A stretch of DNA of 64,000 bases. It comes from Euborellia annulipes. Lineage: Eukaryota > Arthropoda > Insecta > Dermaptera > Anisolabididae. The notes beneath the pieces are model-generated. The model searched no databases and had not been told where the DNA came from. It was given only the letters and a program-made list of their open reading frames with translations. The position numbers and the translations under genes are program-made. Of the stretch, positions 7,457-61,782 are shown piece by piece; positions within the stretch are counted from its first letter, which is position 1; each line of letters starts with the position of its first letter. The stretch spans positions 1-64,000 of the forward strand of contig JAKCPI010002519.1 of NCBI GenBank assembly GCA_023213315.1, read 5' to 3'.

Positions 7457-8347
7457 TTAACATATATATAGAGGAAGAGAAAGAAAAAAAAGATAAAAAT
7501 AATAAGAATTCTTATATTGATCTTTTTTGTCCCAAAATTTAAAATTCCTTTGATTAAATTTTGGTGTAATTAAATTTAAGCGTGTGTGCTTTGATAGAGG
7601 ACATGGCTTTGTTCAATTTTAAATAGCTATTCAAAAATTGCATAAAACACTTCAAAAAAAGCTAATTGCCGGTTTAGAATTATTTATATAAAAAAATTTT
7701 ATTTTATCCTTCATTAATTATCAAATGGTTAATAATCTGGAGACTAATAAAAGGTCCAAATGAGTGGATTTCTCACTCTACTTGGTTAATTTATAGGACA
7801 GTTATTTTCAACCTAAAACTTTTTATCAAGTTTGTTTCTGCAAATATCTGCAAATGTAACCAGTAACATTTCCAAAGAGAAAATGGGAGAATGAGAGAGA
7901 GAGAGGGAGGGAGAGAGAAGAATCCCTTTCCTAGCCCTAGTCCTAATTGCCCTCTAATCGAATAATCACCTTGCCAACCTCTAACAGCTTCAGATTAATG
8001 GCAAACTAAAAGGATACTCGGAATTTTGCAACTCTTCATTAAAGAGAAATACATTTATGTGGACGGGTTTCCCAACTAGAAACTAAAATAAATAATTTAA
8101 AATTATATTTCGAAAGGAACCTTTTAAGAACTTTTTGGGTGATTTAAAACACTGCCTAACTGTTCCTCTTCCTCGTAAATAATATCATGGAATCAGCAGC
8201 ACTTGATTATGTATTCTGTTATTGCCGCAATTCCACTCTAACAAGTATTTGAACCTTCCTCAAATTAGCAGATCATCACTAATTGATTAATTATTAATAT
8301 TAGTCAAGTCTACATGCAGGTCCTTATGTAGACAAAGGTGATAGTAA
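7457..8347. other. AT-rich intergenic stretch
   Basis: No gene or repeat recognised apart from a GA-rich microsatellite at about 7893-7918. Confidence 0.6.
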
Positions 8348-11121: not shown

Positions 11122-11443
11122 GTATGTCATTTATATATCACGCACAAATATTTATATATATATATATTTATAATAAAAAAAAAAAACTTTTTTTATTAAA
11201 TAAAAAGCTAATGTTTTATGAAAAATAAGAACGAGAAAATATTAAATTTTAAATATAATTAAGAATAAACTAATTAAATTTTTAATATTTCAAATAAACA
11301 AAATATAAATTGTAAAAGTTTTTGAGATTTCTTAGTCATTTTCTACTTTTAATTAATTCTAACAAGTAAGTGAAAAAAGAAATAATTAAAAATAAAACAC
11401 CAAATGTTTAGATTTTAAAAATATTTTTCAATTAGAAAAAAAT
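11122..11443 (+). other. Start of the putative first intron
   Basis: After the GTATGT donor the sequence becomes very AT-rich with a (TA)n tract and poly-A/T runs. No exon recognised. Confidence 0.5.
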
Positions 11444-11476
11444 AGCAACTATTTATTATAACGTTTTATTCAAGCA

Positions 11477-11525
11477 CACCATGCTGACGTTTCGGTCTTT
11501 GACAAGACCACCTTCAGAGCTTCTG
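11477..11525 (-). ncRNA. Hammerhead-like motif, FB-a left arm
   Basis: On the minus strand: CTGAAGG, then T, a 6-bp stem GGTCTT/AAGACC, then GAAACGTC. GCT before the core can pair with AGC after GTC as a short helix I. The last core base of CTGANGA is G instead of A, and one extra base precedes the stem. Confidence 0.4.
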
Positions 11526-11798
11526 GGCTGTCAGTATAAATACAATTGAAAATTTCCTTACACCCGTATACCTATACTATAAATGATGAACGACAATTGA
11601 AAATGCTGGAGGCATTTTCAGGCCAAGGACTCAAAGTCTCCCGAAACGTCGACTTAATAGTGGAATAAAATTTGGCCTGAAAATACCTCCAGTATTTTCA
11701 ATTGTCGTTAATCATCTATCTACACCAGGCTTTCCCAATCATCTTTATACTATAAATTTTCAATTATACGTATTGAATATTTATGCTGACAGCCCACA

Positions 11799-11843
11799 AG
11801 CTCTGAGGATGATTGATCTTGTTCAAGACCGAAACGTCAGAGA
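11799..11843 (+). ncRNA. Hammerhead-like motif, FB-a right arm
   Basis: CTGAGGA, a stem built on TCTTG/CAAGA, then CCGAAACGTC. CT before the core can pair with AG after GTC. The stem differs from the left-arm copy but still pairs. Helix I is minimal. Confidence 0.4.
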
Positions 11844-11985
11844 ATAAAACGAAATAATAAATAGCTGCCAATCTTTTTCCTTATTTATCTATAAATTCAA
11901 CAACTTGTAAGACAAATCTTAAGTTATAATAAGGATAGCAGATGGCAGCCAAGGAAAATAAAATCAATTTCTATCAGATTTTTCT

Positions 11986-12051
11986 TTATTTGATCGTCGA
12001 CGTTTCGGATGCCAGTTGCGTCCTTCCTCAGGCCAATCAATCGTCAAATAA
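11986..12051 (-). ncRNA. Hammerhead-like motif with long helix I, FB-b left arm
   Basis: On the minus strand: TTATTTGA, a spacer, CTGAGGA, A, GGACGC/GCATCC stem (one mismatch), GAAACGTC, then GACGA and TCAAATAA. The distal TTATTTGA/TCAAATAA gives 8 bp of helix I separated from the core by an internal loop, an arrangement known in natural hammerheads where loops on helices I and II interact. GTC supplies a permitted cleavage triplet. Confidence 0.5.
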
Positions 12052-12110
12052 ATAAAGATGTAAGTATTAATATTTTAACGAAAATTGAAATCGTACATGG
12101 AATAGAGCAA

Positions 12111-12176
12111 TTTATTTGACGATTGATTGTCCTGAGGAAGGACGCGACTGGCGTCCGAAACGTGGACGAATAAATA
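12111..12176 (+). ncRNA. Hammerhead-like motif, probably inactive, FB-b right arm
   Basis: CTGAGGA, A, GGACGC/GCGTCC perfect 6-bp stem, then GAAACGTG. The stem pairs better than in the left arm, but the GTC triplet has become GTG, which hammerheads do not cleave. Confidence 0.4.
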
Positions 12177-12285
12177 AAAAAAAATCTGATAGAAATTGAT
12201 TTTATTTTCATTGGCTGCCTGCCGTCCGCTATCCTTATTAATTTAAACAGCCATATTCTTTCTCATAATGATTATCATGGGCGTA

Positions 12286-12503: not shown

Positions 12504-13162
12504 TAGGGCTGGACGGTAAACCGGTTTACCGGTAAAAATTTTTTACCGAAAACGCGGTAACGAACCTCTAATTCGATAAAAACCGGTTTTTTTTCGAAAG
12601 TCGGTAAAAACCTATTTTTTCGGGCGGTAAAAAATTTTGGTTCGGCGAGAAAAAAAATGTTCCGCGGCGGCAAACCAAATTGTGGTTCTGCGGTGGCAAA
12701 TTTCTGTCCCGCGGGCGGCAAAAAATTGGCGTCTCTAAAAAAAAAGGTAAAATATTTTTCCGGCCCGAGAAAAATTTTGGTTCCGCGGGAGGGGCAAAAA
12801 ATGTTTCGGCAAAAAATTGGCTCTCTAAAAAAAAAGGTAAAATATTTTGCCGGCCGAAAAAAAATGTTTCGGCAAAAAATTGGCTCTCTAAAAAAAAGGT
12901 AAAATATTTTTCCGGACGGGGAAAAATTTTGGTTCCGCGGGGGGGCAAAAAATGTTTCGGCAAAAAATTGGCTCTCTAAAAAAAAGGTAAAATATTTTGC
13001 CGGCCGGGGAAAAATTTTGGTTCCGCAAAAAAAAAAAAAATGTTCCGCGGCGGCAAACTTTGGTTCCGCGGGCGGTAAAAATTTTTTACCGACTTTCGAG
13101 AAAAACCGGTTTTTTTTTCATTATCGAGGTCGGTAATGAAAATCCATTACCGTCCAGCCCTA
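12504..13162. mobile_element. hAT-type MITE with internal tandem repeats
   Basis: Terminal inverted repeats TAGGGCTGGACGGTAA and TTACCGTCCAGCCCTA, flanked by a perfect 8-bp duplication CTCTGAGG at 12496-12503 and 13163-13170, the hAT signature. The interior repeats a block built from TTGGCTCTCTAAAA, GGTAAAATATTTT, CCGGCC and TTTTGGTTCCGCGGG; the TTGGC-TCTCT start recurs near 12724, 12817, 12880 and 12968 (spacing 93, 63, 88 bp). Overlapping open frames on both strands here are by-products of this repeat, not genes. Confidence 0.92.
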
Positions 13163-18898: not shown

Positions 18899-19104
18899 CG
18901 ATATTTTTATTGAAGATTAAATTAAAAAAAAAAAAGACTTCTTTTCGGCCCGAATTATTTTAATTTCCCTTGTCGACGTTTCGGGTTTTCGTGTTTGGTC
19001 CTATTGATTGTAATATAGATCTTGAAGATGGGTGATGTTTAGTCACCGAAACGTCGACAAGGGATATTAAAATAATTTTGTTAATCATTGATATTTTTAT
19101 TAAT
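18899..19104. mobile_element. Fold-back element FB-c
   Basis: Arms pair GATATTTTTATT at both ends and TTATTTTAAT-TCCCTTGTCGACGTTTCGG with its inverse. The left arm has a ~25-bp insertion. The right arm holds a hammerhead-like core; in the left arm that part is replaced. Confidence 0.82.
19021..19062 (+). ncRNA. Hammerhead-like motif, FB-c right arm
   Basis: TTGAAGA, TG, GGTGA/TCACC stem, GAAACGTC, then GACAAGGG. The first core base is T rather than C. The stem keeps pairing with a sequence unlike the other copies. No helix I partner on the same side. Confidence 0.35.
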
Positions 19105-27335: not shown

Positions 27336-27740
27336 AAATCAAAGAGAATATTTTTCATTTTAGCTCTCTATTGTATCCTAAATTAAAAACAAATCAAGGG
27401 ATGCTAACAAAACGAACTAGCTAAAGATTAGAAGACAGCTAATAACAACGAAACTCCAACAGAAAATATTCTCGTTGATTTCTCAACTTTTAGATTCACG
27501 AAAATCAAAATGCTCTAATGTTATGAGATTGTTTTGGTTATGGACGTTAAATAAATGCTATGAATTGAGAAAATAGAAAAGCTTTATTTCTATTCTAAAG
27601 ATATTAGAGAACACAAAAAAAAACGTATTTTGACAACGTTTTGAGCGCCGGTCTCGCCTATCTTCAGTACAAAATAAGTGAAATGTTTTCGGATAAATTG
27701 ATAATTATTACAAATCCTAATTCAACCTGACATCTACTGG
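27336..27740. other. Intergenic with one fold-back half arm
   Basis: 27560-27700 carries a solo arm of the hammerhead-like fold-back type. No gene recognised. Confidence 0.5.
27626..27676 (-). ncRNA. Hammerhead-like motif with 7-bp helix I
   Basis: On the minus strand: TATTTTG, TA, CTGAAGA, T, a weak stem, AAAACGTT, GT, CAAAATA. TATTTTG pairs perfectly with CAAAATA around the core. The invariant G of GAAA is A here and the cleavage triplet is GTT, so it is probably decayed. Confidence 0.4.
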
Positions 27741-27865
27741 TACAGTGAGCGCCACAATAAGGTCCTCATCTAGGAGCTAGAGCCTTAAGTATATGGTAGG
27801 CATATAGTATATGGTAGTCTATATAGTGAAATAATTTTAATGACCGAAAAGGTAAAATAATGGTA

Positions 27866-28074
27866 CAGTGAGAGACAATAATAAGTCCCACCCATGCGTT
27901 TTATACTTGTGATTATTTCATTATTTTAAAAAAATATTACATATTTTTCAATGAAAACTTTCATGGTTCAAACTTAGAAAATTTCCAATAAAGATTTTCA
28001 TTTTCTTTTATAAAAACAATGAAATAATCACAAGTAGAAAACACATGGGTGGGACTTAATATTGCCCCTCACTG
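27866..28074. mobile_element. Tc1/mariner-type MITE (family M2)
   Basis: Ends CAGTGAGAGACAATAATAAG and CTTAATATTGCCCCTCACTG, TA on both sides. Arms pair through GTCCCACCCATG and GTGATTATTTCATT for about 60 bp. Confidence 0.92.
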
Positions 28075-28135
28075 TACATATGATTTTATTTCAAATTTTC
28101 AATTATACTTAAGTCTCTAGCTCCCTAGTTGGGAC

Positions 28136-28319
28136 CAGGGCCGGATCTAGAGGGGGGCAGTGGGTGCATGTGCCCCGGGCGGCAGATTTCAGGGGGCGGC
28201 AATTAAAGAAATATTTACTAAAAAAAGGTAAAATCATATGAATTTTGTATAGAAAATTTTAAGGAGGGGCGGCAAATTAAATTTTGCACCCCCTAAAAAA
28301 TCTCCTAGTTCCGGCCCTG
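28136..28319. mobile_element. hAT-type MITE with CAGGGCCGG ends
   Basis: Ends CAGGGCCGGATCTAG and CTAGTTCCGGCCCTG, flanked by perfect 8-bp GTTGGGAC (28128-28135, 28320-28327). Interior has GGGGGCGGCAATTAAAG and GGGGCGGCAAATT. Confidence 0.93.
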
Positions 28320-28354
28320 GTTGGGACTTAATTGTGGCGCCCACTCTAGAGGTA

Positions 28355-28554
28355 CGGTGAGGGACAATATTAAGTCCCACCCATGTGTTTTCTAATTGTG
28401 ATTATTTCATTGTTTTTATAAAAGAAAATGAAAATTTTTATTGGAAATTTTCTAGATTTGAACCATGAAAGTTTATGAAAATATTTGTTTTAAAAACAAT
28501 GAAATAATCACAAGTAGAAAACGCATGAGTGGTACTTAATATTGTCCCTCACTG
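28355..28554. mobile_element. M2 MITE, second copy
   Basis: Ends CGGTGAGGGACAATATTAAG and CTTAATATTGTCCCTCACTG, TA on both sides (28353-28354, 28555-28556). Only 6 bp separate it from the M1 TA duplication. Confidence 0.92.
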
Positions 28555-28556
28555 TA

Positions 28557-30540
28557 CATCCTGAGAACGAAGCTCGAAAAGTTGACAAATGTGATTTTTT
28601 TTTTCACCTCTGGCTATATTTTCTTCTCTCTCTCTCTCTCTCTACACAACATTAAATTCAATCCAACTACTCATCTACACTGTTAAAAAAACTTCCAAAA
28701 AACTTCCTATACAAGTATAGGAATTCTGTTTCATAAACTGTTTATGAATATATATGAGAAAGTTCAATTTGGTGCCAACCTAACCAATTTCTTGTATATT
28801 TTAAAATTAATTATTTTGGTAAAATTGTTAATTTGAATTTGAATTTTTATAGCTATTTAGTTGAATTAATTTATAAAAATTATTTAATTAGTATGATTGT
28901 AATATAATTCATAAATATTTAAATAGTTTAGAGCGCGAATTTCAAACCAGAATTTAATAAATTTGGATTTGTGAAATAAATTTTAAAAGAATAATTTCAA
29001 GTTTCCTTAAAATAATTATAAAATAATATTAATAAAAATTCCTTGAGGTAGTCGAGTTATTTGAGAACGTTTAGACCAGTGATTATCAACTTGTCGCGGT
29101 ACACTTTTAACGATTTCAAAATTTGGCGGCACACAAAGAAAAAGATCAGTTTAAAAGTTGGTAATTTGTTCATAAACTTTTATATTAATTTTAATTCATA
29201 TCCTGGGTATATTAATATTAAACCACGAAAGTATATGGAAAATGATTGAAAATTCATATTTTTTTACAGTGTATATAAAATTTTATTTATAAACAAAATC
29301 TCAAGTTGATACATTTTAAAATTGGCAAAATGCTTGGGCAATCCAACTCTACAATGAATATAATATATAAATCTTTTATTTCACTCCCTTACTAAATGAA
29401 TATATTCCTTTTTTTTTCTTAAGATTGGCGAAAATTTATTTTCAAAACTTTTATCTAAATTTACAGTAAAACTTCTTTCTCTTTAGGCAATCTATGTTTT
29501 TCTTTGCAAATGGGAATATAAAAGGAATGTTTTAAGAATTTGGCGTAAGACCAAAAAACGTTTATTTTCTAATCTCAAAACTTTAGAATTATATCACTAT
29601 GTTTATAAATAAAGTCTCTTTATGGCTATGGCGGATGCGATGGGATTCATTTCTGTCCTTGTATGTAATTTTAATCAAAATAGATTTGAAGACTTGTTTA
29701 ATTTTTGAAATGAAATAATATCTCAATAGGATTGATAAGAAGATGCAATTAGAAGTGATTCCTTTCGTGGTTCATTATCCAGATAAATGACGCCAATTTT
29801 AGGGTTTCTTTTTTTCTGAGGGACAATGAAATATTGGCTGGTCTTTAAGATATCGGCACAAGAACTCTTCTTATGTGATTCATAAATTATTCAAATGACT
29901 TTTCTGTAGTGACTGACTTATGTGAAAATATAAAATGATAAATTACCTATTCCATTGATACGACGTATTAACTTGGCCCCAAATAATAGTGTATATAGAA
30001 AAAAAAGTCACCACGAAATTTCAATAAAAATAAATGAAAAAAAAATACAAGAAAAAAAAACTCGCACATGAAAAAAAAATTCGTTTACTGAACCTCACTC
30101 ATATTCTCTAGTAAAAATTCTGCAAAATTATCTCAGGCGGTATAATTTCCAAATAATGTTATTTAATAAACTAATTTTTTTTGCGGCCTCTTGAGATAAA
30201 ATTAAATATAAAGTGACAGGTAAATCCAATTGAGTTAAGCACTCATGTAATACAATAGAACTCTATACTATGATACTATAATATTACAAATATGATATGT
30301 TTCCTAAAAATTTTTTTTTACTGGAAATTTATCTAAAATTGTTCAATACTCTTTAACTAAAACAAAAAAAAATCTCTTGTTGAGAGTTGAGTTTGTATCA
30401 CGATTTCAACTCGACTAAACTGTTTTTAGGAATGTGCATATAATCAATCAATTGTAGAGATTTTCCAGCAGGAACTGAACGATAGGGGAACAAATAATCG
30501 AGTACAGTTGAAGGATTAAAAATGGAATGTATGCATTGGG
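28557..30540. other. AT-rich intergenic stretch
   Basis: CT microsatellite at 28624-28643. At 29077-29135, CAGTGATTATCAACTTGTCG with GGCGGCACAC resembles a hAT end. No gene recognised in the remaining ~1.9 kb. Confidence 0.5.
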
Positions 30541-33077: not shown

Positions 33078-33199
33078 ATTCTCAATTGGAAGATTACCCT
33101 TAATGGGTAGCAGGTTCTTCAAGCAATAATTCAATAAAAAACATAAATATTTTTCATTTTCAAAATTTTATTTCATTCGATGACTGTATGTGCACAAAT

Positions 33200-33240
33200 A
33201 CCACCAGTTTCGGTCAATCAAATGACCATCATCGGATCTG
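33200..33240 (-). ncRNA. Hammerhead-like motif, FB-d left arm
   Basis: On the minus strand: CCGATGA, T, GGTCA/TGACC stem, GAAACTGGT. Core second base mutated and GTC site altered. Confidence 0.3.
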
Positions 33241-33370
33241 CAAAAACAACATATCACAATGTGAGAGCAGGCACAAGTAAAAAGAAAAACCAAAAAACCA
33301 CAAACTATATGTATGGGTGTCTGTGTGTTAGAAAAACAAAAAAACTACAAACTATATGTATGGGTGTCTG

Positions 33371-33750
33371 CAGGGGCGAGGAACGAATTTGAATCAGGGG
33401 GGAGGGGGGCAAAAAAATTTTTTTAGAAAATTAAAATAATTTAATATGTTCAAATAGTATAAAACAAAAACAAATCTACTATAAAACTTTAAAAATTTTA
33501 AATAAAATCACAATTTTAATAAAATTAAAATTTTGCTAGTGATTTTATCAAAAATTTTTGGAAAAAATTTGAAAAAAAATGAATTTTTTACTCTTTTAAT
33601 TTTTTTAATTTAGAAGATTTTATTTTTCAAAAGAAAAAATATACCATTTTTAAAAATAAATGAAATAAAAAGAATGAAATTTTGCCCCCCTCTGCCCCCC
33701 CTGTAGGATGAGGGGGGCAATGTACCCTTGCCCCCCCAGTTCCGGCGCCT
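33371..33750. mobile_element. MITE inserted at the centre of FB-d
   Basis: Ends AGGGGCGAGGAACGAATT and AGTTCCGGCGCCT are imperfect inverted repeats; G/C-rich runs lie inside both ends and an AT-rich interior between. ATGGGTGTCTG occurs on both sides, longer than expected for a hAT duplication and possibly part of a local repeat. Confidence 0.75.
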
Positions 33751-33840
33751 ATGGGTGTCTGTGTGGTTAGTTTGTGTTTTTTTTTGTTTTTCTTTTTACT
33801 TGTGCCAGCTCTCACGTTGTGATATGTTGTTTTTGCAGAT

Positions 33841-33875
33841 CTGATGATGGTCATTTGAGTGACCGAAACTGGTGA
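33841..33875 (+). ncRNA. Hammerhead-like motif, FB-d right arm
   Basis: CTGATGA exact, T, GGTCA/TGACC stem, GAAACTGGTG. The core is intact but the GTC triplet is not preserved. Confidence 0.35.
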
Positions 33876-34015
33876 TATATGTGCACACACAGTCATCGAA
33901 TGAATAAAATCCTGAAAATGAAAAATATTATATTTATGTTTTTTTATTGAATTATTGCTTGAAGAACCTGCTACCCATTAAGGAGTAATCTTCCAATTGA
34001 GAATTACATATGATC

Positions 34016-36497: not shown

Positions 36498-36605
36498 CTG
36501 AAAAAGTGATTATCTTTTAGAATCTCTACCATATCAAAAGATATTAATAGAAGAAGTAGAATAAGAAAAAAAGAGAGCAGCTAATTGTAATTTCATTTAT
36601 TTCCC

Positions 36606-36658
36606 CTCACTGCTGACGTTTCGGACCTGTTTAGAACACATCTTCACAGCATTCAGTG
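36606..36658 (-). ncRNA. Hammerhead-like motif, solo copy
   Basis: On the minus strand: CACT, bulge, GCT, GTGAAGA, variable stem-loop, GAAACGTC, AGC, AGTG. GCT/AGC and CACT/AGTG form helix I with an internal bulge. The first core base is G instead of C and helix II is weak. Confidence 0.4.
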
Positions 36659-36670
36659 TCATCATTATTA

Positions 36671-42797: not shown

Positions 42798-43670
42798 CTT
42801 TCTCTTATCTATGTATATATGTAATATATATATAGAGAGAAAGTATTGAATTGCCCTCGGGGCATCGCGTAGAGGTTAGCGTGCTAACCTCGTATACCAA
42901 ACGTCGCGGGTTCGGACCCCAGGCAGTCCGATGATTTTATTTAAGCCAATTGGATACCAAATGGCTTAAATAAGAATGCCTGGACCCCTATATGTATATT
43001 TATATAATAACGGTTATCGTCTAAAGTCTTAAATGGCCTGAGTTGCCGAAAAGACTGTGTGAATGTGTGTGTGAGTGTGAATGAGAAAAAAGTGTGAATG
43101 TTCAAAAAAAAAAAAAAAAAAAAGTATTGAATTCATGTCAAAAATTCGATGTCGAGATTTTGATGGATATACACGTTTTGAGGTCCACTGAATCCAAAAA
43201 AGTGGTTTTCGCGACATGGTCTGTCTGTGGGTGGGTGTGGTGTGTGTTCAATTTTAAGCATGAAGGAATTGAGCTATGAGGTTGAAATTTTATATTTAAG
43301 TTAAACACCCCCGGGACCGGAAAAATAAGCTTTTAATCAAAATCGGCCAAAGAGTACCAGTACTTTACTGATGTACTTTTTCAGTTTTTTTCGATTTTCT
43401 CAAAATTTGCTCCAACGATTTTTGAATAAAATTCAAAAATCAATTATTTTTTAGATGCTCTTTAAAATGTATATTCTCATTTTGCAATTGAAATCTTCTG
43501 AAGACCACTTTACTCTTGTACTACATAGAAAAGATAGGAGAAGTGGTTGCAATGGTAACAAAATATAAATATTTTCCCATACTTAAAGGAAACTGGCGCA
43601 CAGCACACAACTTTCTCTTACCTTCGGTAATCGAAAGTTGTGTTCTGTGCTTGTCACACCAGATTTTTTT
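42798..43670 (+). mobile_element. R1 copy with a SINE-1 insertion and flipped end hairpin
   Basis: Left hairpin TACTTTCTCTTATCT, then SINE-1 at 42853-43121, then the normal R1 body. The right hairpin at 43593-43670 reads CTGGCGCACAGCAC ... GCTTGTCACACCAGATTT, i.e. in the orientation expected for a minus-strand copy, and its outer half plus the preceding ~70 bp are gone. Confidence 0.9.
42853..43121 (+). mobile_element. SINE-1 inside R1, with 12-bp target duplication
   Basis: GCCCTCGGGGCATCGCGTAG head, GGGTTCGGACCCC B box, GTGTGAGTGTGAATGAG tail, poly(A). AAGTATTGAATT occurs at 42841-42852 and again at 43122-43133, showing clean insertion into R1. Confidence 0.95.
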
Positions 43671-46752: not shown

Positions 46753-47497
46753 TGCAGCCATGAGGAATATAAGTTTGTTTGTCCGTGTGTGTTCAATTTT
46801 ATGTATGAACGAATTGAGCTACGAATTTGAAATTTTATATTTAAATTTGGCACCCTCCTGGAGAGTGAAAACAAGCTTTTATACAAAATCGACCAAAAAT
46901 TACTAGTACTTTACTAATGCACTTTTTTAGTTTTTTCGATTTTCTCAAAATTCTCAAATTTTGATAAAAATTCAAAAATCAGTTTTCTTTTTTAGATGCT
47001 CTTTAAAATGTATATTCTCATTTTGCCATTGGAGACTACTTTATTCTTGTACTTCAGAGGAAAGATAGGAGAAATGGTTGCCATGGTAACAAAATATAAA
47101 TATTACATCGCCCTCGGGGCTTGGTTAGCGTGCTAACCTCATATACCAAACGTCGCGGGTTCGGACCCCAGGCAGTCCGATGATTTTATTTAAGCCATTT
47201 GGATACCAAATGGCTTAAATAAGAATGCCTGGTCCCCAATAATAGATAAATTCTTAAATAACGGTTATCGTCAAAGTCTTATATGGCCTAAGTGGCCGAA
47301 AAGACTGTGTGAATGTGTGTATGAATGTGAGTGTGAATGTTTAAAAAAAAAAAATTTTACATCTTGTGTTCTAATTTATCGGCGGAAACTGAATACATGT
47401 CGACACAAAAAATCTGGTGTGACAAGCACCACAACTATCGATTAAAAAGGTAAGAGAAAGTTGTGTGGTGTGCGACCTTCCCTCCATATTTTTTTAA
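46753..47497 (+). mobile_element. R1 copy, left end missing, with SINE-1 insertion
   Basis: Begins near GTGTGTGTTCAATTTTATG, continues with the full body, split by SINE-1 at 47110-47354, and ends in a degraded right hairpin. Confidence 0.87.
47110..47354 (+). mobile_element. SINE-1 inside R1
   Basis: GCCCTCGGGGCTTGGTTAGCG (A-box region shortened), GGGTTCGGACCCC, GTGTGTATGAATGTGAG and poly(A). TTACATC is repeated on both sides. Confidence 0.93.
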
Positions 47498-49286: not shown

Positions 49287-50121
49287 TACTTTCTCTTACC
49301 TCTATATTTATGTTAATATATAGTTATATATAGAAAGAAAGTAATGGATTGGATTAATGTCAAAAATTCGATGCCGAGTTTTTGATGGATATACACGTTT
49401 TGAGATCCCCTGAATCCAAAAAAAGTGGTTTTCGCGTCTGTGTGTGTGTGTGTGTGTGTGTGCGTGTGTGTGTCTGTCTGTGAACAAAATATCTCAAGAA
49501 CGGAAAGAGCTAGGAGGTTGAAATTGTATATTTAAGTTAGGCGCCCCCATGGGACGTGACACGAAGCTTTTGAACAAAATCGACCAAAGAGTACTAGTAC
49601 TTTACTAATGCGGTTTTTCAGTTTTTTTTTCGATTTTCTCTAAATTCGCTCTAACCATTTTTTTTTAATTCAAAAATCAATTATTTTTTAGATTCCCTTT
49701 AAAATGTATATTCTCATTTTGTCATTGAAATCTTCTGAATACCAATTTACTCTTGTACTCCATAGAAAAGATAGGAGAAATGGTTGCAATGGAAACAAAA
49801 TATAAATATTTTTTAAGGGTCCGGTGGCCTGGTACAATGGACAGCACGCCTATGCCCCGGAAAGGCGGAGATCCTGGGTTCGATTCCCGGGGGCCATGGG
49901 ATGTTTGGCCTCACCAATAAATAACACTCACACCTTTGTTAGATATATAAATTTTTTCACATATAAATTTTACAACTTGAAAATCGAATGTACCGTACTG
50001 TCGGAAACTAAATACATGTCGACACAAAAATCTGGTGTGACAAGCACAGAACACAACTTTCGATTACCGAAGGTAAGAAAAAGTTGTGTGCTGTGCGCCA
50101 GTCACACCAGATTTTTTTTCT
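49287..50121 (+). mobile_element. R1 copy, full length, with a tRNA-like insertion
   Basis: Left hairpin, long (TG)n tract at about 49439-49483, full body, then a ~140-bp tRNA-like insertion (about 49815-49955) in the AAATATAAATATTTT region, then the intact right hairpin to GTCACACCAGATTTTTT. Confidence 0.93.
49825..49896 (+). repeat. tRNA-like sequence with enlarged anticodon loop (SINE-3 head)
   Basis: 72 nt with acceptor-like ends TGGCCT and GGGGCCA, D-arm-like GTACAATGGACAGC (A box), anticodon-like stem CGCCT/AGGCG and T-arm GGGTTCGATTCCC (B box). The loop in the anticodon stem is 11 nt rather than 7, so it is not a working tRNA. It is followed by TTTGGCCTCACCAATAAATA and an A/T-rich end, and its T-arm half recurs at 16236-16282. 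Best read as a tRNA-derived SINE or tRNA pseudogene. Confidence 0.65.
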
Positions 50122-56082: not shown

Positions 56083-56712
56083 AAATCTGGTGTGACTGTT
56101 CGCACATGTGTCAACATATATTTAGTTTTCGCCGATATTTTTTTTTTTTTTTTATAAAAACACTCACACTTTTTTCCTATTCCAGGTATTCTCATTTAAG
56201 CCATTTGGTATCCAAATAGACCCGCCGATATATTAAAATTCAAGATGGGTAATTTTTAAATAGGGGAAAATATTTATATTTTGTTATCATGGCAACCTTT
56301 TCTATGAAGTATTCAATACAAGAGTAAAGTGTGCTTCATAAGATTTCAACAGAAAAATGAGAATATACATTTTAAAGAATATCTAAAAAAATAAGTGATT
56401 TTTGAATTTTAAACAAAATCGTTGGAGCAAATTTTGATAAAATCGAAAAAATCTGAAAAAGTACATCAGTAAAGTACTTTTTGGTCGATTTTGTTTAAAA
56501 GCTTATTTGCACGATTTCGGGGGGTGCCTAACTTAAATATAAAATTTCGACCTCGTAGCTCATTTCCTTCATGCTTAAAAATGTCCGTGAACACAAACAT
56601 ACACACAGACCAATTTGCGGGATCCACTTTTTTGGACTCAGGGGATCTCAAACATATATATGCATCAAAATTTTGACATCGAATTTTTGACATACTTTCT
56701 CTCTCTATATAC
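56083..56712 (-). mobile_element. R1 copy with degraded hairpin and a SINE-1 fragment
   Basis: AAAAAATCTGGTGTGACTG then an abruptly shortened hairpin, body split at about 56138-56222 by a minus-strand SINE-1 fragment (AACACTCACACTTTTTTCC, ATTTAAGCCATTTGG), then full body to ACTTTCTCTCTCTATAT. Confidence 0.87.
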
Positions 56713-56769
56713 AGGATTCGCAGGGACTTTGCAGCCAGGAGATTAAATAAAAAAATCTTTTATTTAATT

Positions 56770-56815
56770 TTTATTTGCCGACGTTTCGGTAGCCAATCAC
56801 GACCTTCATCAGAGT
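56770..56815 (-). ncRNA. Hammerhead-like motif, FB-e left arm
   Basis: On the minus strand: CTGATGA exact, A, GGTCG with CTACC (one mismatch), GAAACGTC exact. Confidence 0.45.
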
Positions 56816-57010
56816 TCCTTCATAAGAATATAAATTCGAGAAATATCAGATGTACTTACAAATATTGTCAATTATACACGATCTTAGGTAGCCTATTTTA
56901 ATATTTATCGTGTATAATTGACAATATTTGTAAGTACATCTGATATTTCTCGAATTTGTATTCTTATTGTAATTTAATATCAATTTTTTAAATAAATGTT
57001 ATGATCATAG

Positions 57011-57052
57011 GTCCTGATGAAGGTCGTGATTGGCGACCGAAATGTCGGCAAA
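57011..57052 (+). ncRNA. Hammerhead-like motif, FB-e right arm
   Basis: CTGATGA exact, A, GGTCG/CGACC perfect 5-bp stem, GAAATGTC. The ACGT of helix III is ATGT here. GTC cleavage triplet kept. Confidence 0.45.
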
Positions 57053-57206
57053 TAAAAATTAAATAAAAGATTTTTTTATTTAATCTCCTGGCTGCAAAGT
57101 CACTGCGAATCCTGAGAAAAGCTCCACAGCCATAAAACATCAATTAATCTCTACTATATTTCATATAGTTGCTGCGTCCTCGCGACCCCCTGACATTCAA
57201 ACACCT

Positions 57207-57246
57207 ATTTTGTTCTGATGATGAGTGCTCGAAACGTCGACAAAAT
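57207..57246 (+). ncRNA. Best hammerhead-like ribozyme candidate, with 8-bp helix I
   Basis: Helix I 5' strand ATTTTGTT (57207-57214) pairs with GACAAAAT (57239-57246), 8 bp with one G-T. Inside: CTGATGA (57215-57221), T, GAG-TG-CTC (helix II, 57223-57230), GAA (57231-57233), ACGT (self-complementary helix III, 57234-57237) and C17 (57238). A two-base-pair helix III without a loop is known in minimal hammerheads of Penelope-like retroelements, which work as dimers. Helix II is only 3 bp with a 2-nt loop, and one extra base follows CTGATGA, so activity is uncertain. Confidence 0.55.
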
Positions 57247-57345
57247 AATATAAGCTACCAATACACATCTTTATATGATAATAATGCAGCCATCAATAAA
57301 CAATTAAAAGAAAAATTATATAAAACGAGACTATTAGATAACTTC

Positions 57346-57480
57346 CAATGAAAAGACAATCCCTGACTCAAAGAGATACAAAAACATTTCAGACTCCTAA
57401 AAGCATCTTTAGAAAAAAAAACACAAGACAATTGAAAAAGAAATTTGGGCCTCAATCAATCAAAATCTGATCGCATGTCA
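57346..57480 (+). repeat. R5 repeat, partial third copy
   Basis: AATCCCTGACTCAAAGAG, CAGACTCCTAAAAGC, ACACAAGACAATTG, GGGCCTCAATCAATCAAAAT and CTGATCGCATG match the 3' parts of the other R5 copies in order. Confidence 0.55.
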
Positions 57481-57970
57481 TGATTCGATCATGTCATTCA
57501 ATGCTGAGATTTTAAAAGAAATAACCAACAGTATTATTAAATGAATATATTGGCAACTTTTTTTTTTTATTAGAAATATATTTTAAGAAAATGTGATCGG
57601 TTTATCAAAAGCTTATCAAATGTTAGTCATGTGCTAATAAAACGAGTAAGAAAAATCGATGTAGCTTTTAAAAATTATAATCGGATCAAGATTAAATATA
57701 CCCAGCGAGTTTTCATTGATTACATATCAATCGTGTGAAAATATTTTCGAGTTTAAAAGAGGGCTGATGATAAATTTACTTACAAATATAGGCCTTTATG
57801 AGTCTCACGTTCGTTGTTCATCCAGGTGACGTTGCTAAATCGGCTGTCAAGGCGATTTTTCTCCTCGGATCAGATTTAACGCAATATCTCAGGTTAAATT
57901 AAAGGAGATATCTGAAACAAGATTTTAAACTATTTAATAATCATTTTCTCTATTTTTATATATTTCAATA
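57481..57970. other. AT-rich intergenic stretch
   Basis: Nothing recognised. Confidence 0.45.
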
Positions 57971-60862: not shown

Positions 60863-60920
60863 TTGATTAATTTGTGATTTATTTTAGCAAATAATAATGT
60901 GTTACTAATTACAATAATAT

Positions 60921-60960
60921 ACAACGTTTCGGCTGCTAATTCTGCGGCAGTCATCACTTA
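60921..60960 (-). ncRNA. Hammerhead-like motif, FB-f left arm
   Basis: On the minus strand: GTGATGA, a stem-loop ending GCAGCC, GAAACGTT. First core base is G and helix II pairs poorly; GTT is a permitted triplet. Confidence 0.3.
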
Positions 60961-61029
60961 AATGCATTCACTTTTTAAATGTTTATGGTGTTTGTGTGCC
61001 GTCATCAGGTAAAGGTATTCACTTTTTGA

Positions 61030-61065
61030 AGTGATGACGGCTGCAGAAAGCAGTCAAAACGTTGT
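61030..61065 (+). ncRNA. Hammerhead-like motif, FB-f right arm
   Basis: GTGATGA, C, GGCTGC-AGAAA-GCAGTC, AAAACGTT. The invariant G of GAAA is A. Decayed. Confidence 0.3.
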
Positions 61066-61121
61066 ATTTTATTGTAATTAGTAACACATTTTTAAGTATT
61101 ATTATTTGTTAAAATAAACCT

Positions 61122-61782
61122 CGATTTAAGACTGTCTTAAATCACTAAAAACGATAATAGTTTAAGTTTAATTCAATTAATCAATTCGAACTTTAACCAT
61201 GAAAATGTCTACCCCGTTCTTTCATCAAGGCCAATACTGGAGTTTTATTAAATAGACCAATATTTCAGTAACAAAATTTGATCGTCGTCAGCCTCAAATG
61301 TGGCAAAGAAAATACTCTTTCAAAAATTAGGCCTAAAAGTGAAAAATTTAGAAAAAGATTTACAAATCTTTTTTATTGATTTCAAAAAGATCTTAAAAAT
61401 TAAATGTAAATTCAATATAATAAGCAGAGGATATTTTTTTTTTTTTTTCTTTTGAAACAAATTCAATTTTTTTTCACTTTAGTTCACTCCACTCGATATA
61501 TATAAAGAATAACTCATAAAATCTTATAAAAGACTTTTTGATCAACAACATCTTTTCTAAAAACAAAAATAAATGGATTTCATAAAACAAAAGAAGATGG
61601 ATGTGATATTAAAATATTCGATATAAGATATATATATATATAAAAAAAAGTATCCGGTTCAATATAAAAATTTTTCTTCAAAAGAGTGGGAAATTAAATA
61701 AAAAATAATCTTGTTTTTTAATATTAATTTATTGGAAAAAAGGATTTGTAGATTTTTTTTCTTTATTATATGGACTCTGTTA
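61122..61782. other. AT-rich intergenic stretch
   Basis: Nothing recognised; (TA)n near 61626-61645. Confidence 0.5.

Follow-up and report, generated by a model that had tools for sequence, protein, structure and literature searches.

A probable degenerate copy of a Penelope-type minimal hammerhead in the genome of Euborellia annulipes

Metazoan genomes hold retrozymes and Penelope-like elements (PLEs), both with type I hammerheads (PMC7229834). In PLEs and Terminons these hammerheads are of a minimal type without helix III, scattered by the thousand through the genomes of many metazoans (PMC7761336, PMC6155905), and those of PLEs perhaps self-cleave through dimeric motifs (PMC7761336). Here we describe a module of this layout at 57206–57247 in 64,000 nt of Euborellia annulipes DNA (contig JAKCPI010002519.1, positions 1 to 64,000; hereafter the window), which an earlier note had described as a complete hammerhead-like fold. 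The module, called the 57215 copy after the first base of its core, is very probably a degenerate solo minimal hammerhead of the Penelope type; such a hammerhead would function as a dimer or together with a protein, and this copy is probably weak or dead. The primary papers on such minimal hammerheads are reportedly those of Cervera and de la Pena (2014) and Lunse et al. (2017), and the latter is said, going by its title, to report that minimal hammerheads cleave as dimers.

A described module of similar design is that of Poseidon of Anolis carolinensis (PAc), a PLE, which reads CCT-CTGAGGA-T-GCC..GGC-GAAACGTC-AGG (PMC11167929). As in the 57215 copy, CTGANGA, one linker T, helix II, GAAACGTC and helix I are present, and ACGT stands at the position of helix III. 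In PAc, helix I is short and helix II is longer, and the module sits at the PLE start codon, opening an open reading frame (ORF), with the linker T as the T of that codon (PMC11167929); the 57215 copy, in contrast, has nine pairs in helix I and two in helix II and has no ORF. In the published account, PAc was cut only with its protein present, and no RNA-seq reads starting or ending at the cut site were detected (PMC11167929). For the minimal hammerheads of PLEs and Terminons as described (PMC7761336, PMC6155905), compared by layout and not letter by letter with a consensus, the damaged helix II of the 57215 copy was the one difference found.

Anatomy of the module

All parts listed in the earlier note lay exactly at their positions (Table 1). 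The CUGANGA and GAA core of Penelope-type minimal type I hammerheads was present, together with an A-U pair beside the cleavage site (A57234, T57237) and an H at position 17 (C57238). Helix I had been given as 8 bp; it does exist, but it is longer, with nine contiguous pairs (57206–57214 with 57239–57247, one of them G-U), and is backed by covariation in relatives. The letters of the proposed GAG/CTC stem are also in place, but that stem would leave a 2-base loop, so that helix II realistically consists of two pairs (57223–57224 with 57229–57230) with GTGC as the loop. Siblings form up to six pairs here, and helix II covaries in relatives.

The ACGT at 57234–57237 had been taken for a minimal helix III. 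Since it has no loop and cannot fold on itself, there is no intramolecular helix III of the canonical three-helix hammerhead. The minimal class is itself described as lacking helix III (PMC7761336). The self-complementary ACGT in its place, which PAc shares, is a candidate pairing site for a second copy. With helix III absent, cutting would need such a second copy or a PLE protein. The RNA of an intact sibling would fold into the core, helix I, a single linker base and a helix II with at most six pairs, and would be cut after the C of ACGTC with a second copy (ACGU:ACGU) or the PLE protein. At the 57215 copy, the products of cleavage would carry a 2',3'-cyclic phosphate and, at 57239, a 5'-OH end.

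A covarying family in the window and the genome

Eleven further motifs of the same plan in the window were aligned, with the 57215 copy held out. In these relatives, 66.9% of the cells of helices I and II were paired, with a covariation score of 0.399; slid versions of the alignment reached at most 0.178, and none of 500 shuffles attained the observed score. A covariance model built from the 11 motifs (R1) recovered the held-out copy with 39.3 bits (E 8.1e-9, window search); the training rows scored 40.2 to 59.6 bits, and the next match had 17.1 bits. This hold-out was not fully independent, as one training row (27621–27683) shares most of the helix I sequence. The rows were chosen by eye, and the excluded stretches 18961–19042, 28545–28597 and 33825–33880 scored 12.6, 12.3 and 17.1 bits with R1, respectively.

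The assembly searched comprised 903,471,066 bases in 25,949 contigs. The pattern CTGATGA-N6-30-CGAAACGTCG was found at 7,466 places (3,700 + 3,766 on the two strands), and the reversed pattern at 0. The first 30 places in contig order had 85.4% of cells paired and a covariation score of 0.498 (slid versions at most 0.149; 0 of 500 shuffles reached the score), with columns 25:44 and 16:53 unable to vary on one side because the pattern fixes CTGATGA and CGAAACGTCG. A DNA search of 57115–57420 against its own genome gave at least 44 matches, one of them the query itself (of 68 candidates, 40 were scored). Among the matches listed, the best other one covered query positions 75–192 (57189–57306), and many covered only 75–133 (57189–57247).

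The motif is short, the window is AT-rich and the search was made by eye, all of which would favour a chance arrangement. This explanation was refuted and retains next to no probability: the exact core pair (CTGANGA, 6–45 nt, GAAACGTC) occurred four times in the window and in 0 of 400 first-order Markov windows, and the genome-wide control gave 0 against 7,466. The recovery of the held-out copy and the covariation likewise contradict it. CGAAAYGTCG with at most one mismatch was found 20 times in the window versus 2.75 expected.

The T between CTGATGA and helix II, which the earlier note had considered odd, turned out to be ordinary, as a one-base linker is regular in this class. The linker column contained T in five, A in four and C in two of the window relatives, and A in 23, T in six and G in one of the 30 genomic rows. 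When helix II was read without a linker, 34.5% of cells paired across the 11 window rows and column 24:column 44 paired in none of them; with one linker base left out of the helix, 81.5% paired. PAc has U at this position. The plus-strand hammerhead of chrysanthemum chlorotic mottle viroid also leaves a single base unpaired between A9 and position 10.1, an extra A rather than the T at 57222; changing this A to U raised the trans-cleavage rate 3–4 fold, and C and G were harmful (PMC3705267).

The close siblings of the copy were collected with the pattern ATTTTGTNCTGANGATGAG-N2-16-CTCGAAACGT, which admits only 2–16 bases between GAG and CTC and was found at 21 places genome-wide (control 0). The spacing from GAG to CTC was 11 bases in 18 places, nine in two, and two in the 57215 copy. 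An alignment of 18 of the 21 places (omitting one place without a locus as well as L079 and L085, which do not differ from L071 over the stretch compared) showed a 9-column gap in helix II of the 57215 copy. The gap and the 2-base spacing identify this copy as damaged. The fold is therefore not complete, as had been claimed: helix III is absent and helix II is 9 or 7 bases shorter than in the 20 siblings. With the core and helix I kept and most of helix II lost, the copy is probably weak or inactive. The intact siblings, which we infer to be transcribed, are potential dimeric or protein-assisted self-cleaving RNAs.

A self-sufficient hammerhead that cleaves itself in vivo as a monomer is very unlikely here, even though the core is intact and helix I has nine pairs. 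There are hammerheads whose stem II has two pairs or even one, and these can be active (PMC3088659, PMC544870), and the faster trans-cleavage of the viroid ribozyme with U would also speak for such activity (PMC3705267). However, an intramolecular helix III is impossible, helix II is shorter than in 20 of 20 siblings, and the minimum-energy fold competes with the core. Moreover, minimal PLE hammerheads are described as perhaps dimeric (PMC7761336), and PAc remained uncut without its protein in the published account (PMC11167929). Of the two options in the earlier note, a self-cleaving RNA or its recent descendant, the descendant fits better; the note was right about hammerhead descent and about the minimal kind known from PLEs.

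Penelope-like elements of the genome

A 78-residue N-terminus of PAc matched 10 loci in the E. annulipes genome. Four PLE regions (L096–L099) were examined, with ORFs listed in L096 and L097. These two ORFs, of 1,082 and 1,081 amino acids, both encoded a reverse transcriptase domain (E about 2.5e-16) and lay between 300-nt direct repeats, 3.26 kb apart and 99% and 100% identical, respectively. Each direct repeat contained a module, scored by R1 at 21.1 and 16.8 bits in L096 and at 21.1 bits twice in L097, and the start ATG of each ORF consisted of A9, the linker and G of the module. This is the plan of pseudo-long terminal repeat (pLTR), ORF and pLTR reported for Penelope elements, where the first ORF codons belong to the pLTR (PMC3846280, PMC11167929). 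Modules of this type were also present in L098, which had two, and in L099, which had one.

The core in the L096/L097 family reads TTGAAAA, with C3 changed to U and G8 to A, so that the pair is preserved; helix I, the linker and helix II are retained. The exact sequence of this PLE module, with either core state allowed, occurred at 1,706 places (851 + 855). Among 100 listed places, the core was U3-A8 in 98, C3-A8 in two and C3-G8 in none. A location in a pLTR or beside an ORF was thus seen for the core-changed module in L096 and L097 and not for the 57215 copy. In some siblings, read as DNA, the frame followed by eye also stopped early, which ties the subfamily to PLEs by common design and not by an ORF. 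The subfamily presumably moved by means of the PLE machinery; it may be a non-autonomous PLE derivative or another element carrying the module.

Besides these early stops, several results weigh against the assignment of the 57215 copy to Penelope-type minimal hammerheads. The long-ORF PLEs have the changed core (U3, A8) instead of CTGANGA and reach only 16.8–21.1 bits with R1. At the copy itself, the frame from the first ATG meets a stop after 11 codons, and three pieces beside the copy had no Pfam match, so no PLE protein remnant was seen. The PAc N-terminus had its best protein-level match to the window at E 4.2. No target-site duplication was seen among exact repeats of 8–14 bases between 57060–57210 and 57239–57600, where the search yielded one AT-rich match only. 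The minimum-energy fold was unremarkable (z -0.53; 52 of 200 shuffles folded as well) and paired part of the catalytic core. The Rfam hammerhead models gave no match to the module at the gathering score, nor with the E limit raised to 10. In the L096 and L097 ORFs, no GIY-YIG domain was matched by Pfam at E 0.01. Despite this Pfam result, a stretch resembling what we take to be the GIY-YIG signature is visible.

The Rfam search had been proposed in the earlier note, with the lack of any hit, together with a lack of cleavage by several copies, as a refutation. The models found no hammerhead here, but as a refutation this would be unfair: they missed all 12 window motifs, as well as a sequence in a viral contig that was read by hand as a three-helix hammerhead. 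The Rfam hammerhead models are therefore an insufficient test for this minimal class.

This putative hammerhead lies at 12748–12798 of IMGVR_UViG_3300044298_001794 (L002), a contig with phage-like ORFs. It has an extra T after the core and scored 17.9 bits with R1, and DNA similar to 12600–12900 of this contig was found in 0 records of the phage collection. Pattern searches of IMG/VR gave 1 and 14 contigs; as these 15 loci were selected by the pattern itself, their R1 scores carry a bias. One match (L001) fell inside a phage gene and was rejected, and the 28.5 bits of another (L010) were treated as chance. The pattern was found in 0 GTDB contigs. Within the window, PAc DNA had its best match at E 0.23, at the module 11795–11811. 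An adjoining minus-strand ORF was rejected as a PLE remnant, as Pfam gave only Cox20, below the cut-off; ten larger window ORFs gave three Pfam matches, all below the cut-off.

We put forward one further, tentative reading, which is more likely to be wrong than right. In this genome the one-base linker would function within a hammerhead that takes in the start codon (A9-U-G = AUG), with the element RNA either translated or cut just inside the frame. The U3-A8 swap would reflect selection on the core pair, with A replacing G8 as general acid, and the 57215 copy would be a decayed member of a family multiplied as head-to-head fold-backs via self-priming on an RNA with the module at its 5' end.

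Arrangement of the copies

The window contained seven fold-backs of 125 to 989 bp. Hammerhead-like modules sit divergently in their arms, and some of these modules are partial or degenerate (Table 1). Ten of the 12 window motifs lay inside fold-backs with the modules pointing outward; the exceptions were 36601–36663 and the 57215 copy, which was rightly described as solo, since the adjoining fold-back ends at 57114. The fold-backs appear to be arranged like head-to-head inverted Penelope pLTRs. In the rotifer Adineta vaga, Penelope pLTRs likewise occur as inverted head-to-head copies with junction palindromes, ascribed to self-priming, and as solo pLTRs, and contain the first ORF codons (PMC3846280). 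The word hammerhead occurs 0 times in that paper. Genome-wide, all 17 pairs of neighbours no more than 1 kb apart were divergent among 100 listed of the 7,466 places, as were 21 of 23 neighbouring pairs among 100 listed of the 1,706 PLE-module places; beyond 1 kb other orientations also occur, for example a convergent pair on contig C8.

The fold-backs around most window motifs and the uniformly divergent pairs within 1 kb would also be expected of a fold-back DNA transposon family similar to miniature inverted-repeat transposable elements, the ends of which contain or have captured the module. We regard this as improbable, because covariation holds helices I and II in the hammerhead register over diverged copies, whereas a DNA-level terminus needs no such covariation. 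In addition, the PLE module of this genome is itself arranged divergently, and inverted Penelope pLTRs with junction palindromes have a described origin in self-priming (PMC3846280). Slightly less probable still is that the copy belongs to a retrozyme. Retrozymes are small circular-RNA elements that contain type I hammerheads, and metazoan genomes carry them as well as PLEs (PMC7229834). None of the 12 window motifs had an array listed by Tandem Repeats Finder, neighbouring copies in the listed places of each family were mostly divergent and not tandem, and helix III is missing. A Penelope-type minimal hammerhead thus remains the preferred reading of the 57215 copy.

The modules at 57014 and 57215 are both on the plus strand, 201 nt apart, and the ATGT of the one and the ACGT of the other could form a duplex that includes one G-U; a transcript spanning both could in principle form a mixed dimer. 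Downstream of different module families (for example at 57060–57100 and 12190–12220, plus strand), an AT-rich run was followed by TTGGCTGC or CTGGCTGC. A similar stretch was present in several siblings of the 57215 copy, and this common downstream stretch could be a 3' signal. A repeat with a module-like stretch without the usual ACGTC was present in two inverted copies (33128–33297 and 33779–33948); the plus copy reads CTGATGATGGTCA..TGACCGAAACTGG, and the stretch scored 17.1 bits with R1. Two stretches at 42840–42920 and 47090–47165 were near-identical and presumably resemble tRNA-derived short interspersed nuclear element promoters. The sole Rfam tRNA match in the window (49824–49898) was below its cut-off and away from these stretches.

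Table 1. Coordinates of the module, its parts and related features (window positions unless a PLE region is named).
Feature	Position	Strand	Basis or remark
Whole module, TATTTTGTT CTGATGA T GA GTGC TC GAA ACGT C GACAAAATA	57206–57247	+	sequence
Helix I, 5' strand, TATTTTGTT	57206–57214	+	pairs with 57239–57247; covariation in relatives
Helix I, 5' part as first described, ATTTTGTT	57207–57214	+	sequence
Catalytic core CTGATGA (C3 to A9)	57215–57221	+	sequence
Linker base T, core/helix II junction (position '10')	57222	+	column comparison with relatives and PAc
GAG / CTC	57223–57225 / 57228–57230	+	sequence
Helix II remnant, GA / TC closing GTGC	57223–57230	+	shorter than in siblings
Catalytic core GAA	57231–57233	+	sequence
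ACGT, self-complementary; helix III possible between two copies only	57234–57237	+	sequence
C17, predicted cleavage-site base; predicted cut between 57238 and 57239	57238	+	hammerhead scheme
Helix I, 3' part as first described, GACAAAAT	57239–57246	+	sequence
Helix I, 3' strand, GACAAAATA	57239–57247	+	pairs with 57206–57214
Stretch common to other genomic copies	57189–57306	+	own-genome DNA search
Fold-back, two inverted arms and inner hairpin 56822–56967	56712–57114	.	arms 97% complementary, hairpin 98%
Relatives in fold-back 56712–57114	56766–56828; 56998–57060	-; +	R1 50.2 and 59.5 bits; both training rows
Fold-back with divergent relatives 11472–11533 (-), 11787–11852 (+)	11436–11877	.	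R1 and inverted-repeat analysis
Fold-back with divergent relatives 11985–12047 (-), 12116–12178 (+)	11927–12240	.	R1 and inverted-repeat analysis
Fold-back with divergent relatives 60909–60973 (-), 61015–61077 (+)	60867–61129	.	position 3 is G in both relatives
Relative in fold-back 18953–19077	19006–19069	+	position 3 is T; minus arm retains partial module
Other fold-backs	27615–28603; 33098–33983		
Relative whose helix I sequence is mostly shared with the 57215 copy (TATTTTG / CAAAATA)	27621–27683	-	
Solo relative	36601–36663	-	position 3 is G
PLE modules	L096 1656–1711, 4921–4976; L097 1478–1533, 4740–4795	-	R1

The minimal PLE hammerhead is already well described, and the 57215 copy adds a member to that class. 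As a single decayed copy it matters little; the population, with 7,466 exact-core places and 1,706 core-changed PLE-module places, matters more. Its helices I and II exist in several versions, and elements with long ORFs carry the module. The U3-A8 swap, if read correctly, would be natural evidence of selection on the core pair and of the ability of A to replace G8 as general acid. With this population, the natural importance of the linker base and of the C3-G8 pair becomes testable. The genome is a large natural collection in which the role of PLE hammerheads can be tested, both as to whether they act as dimers or with protein only and as to cutting versus translation from the overlapping AUG.
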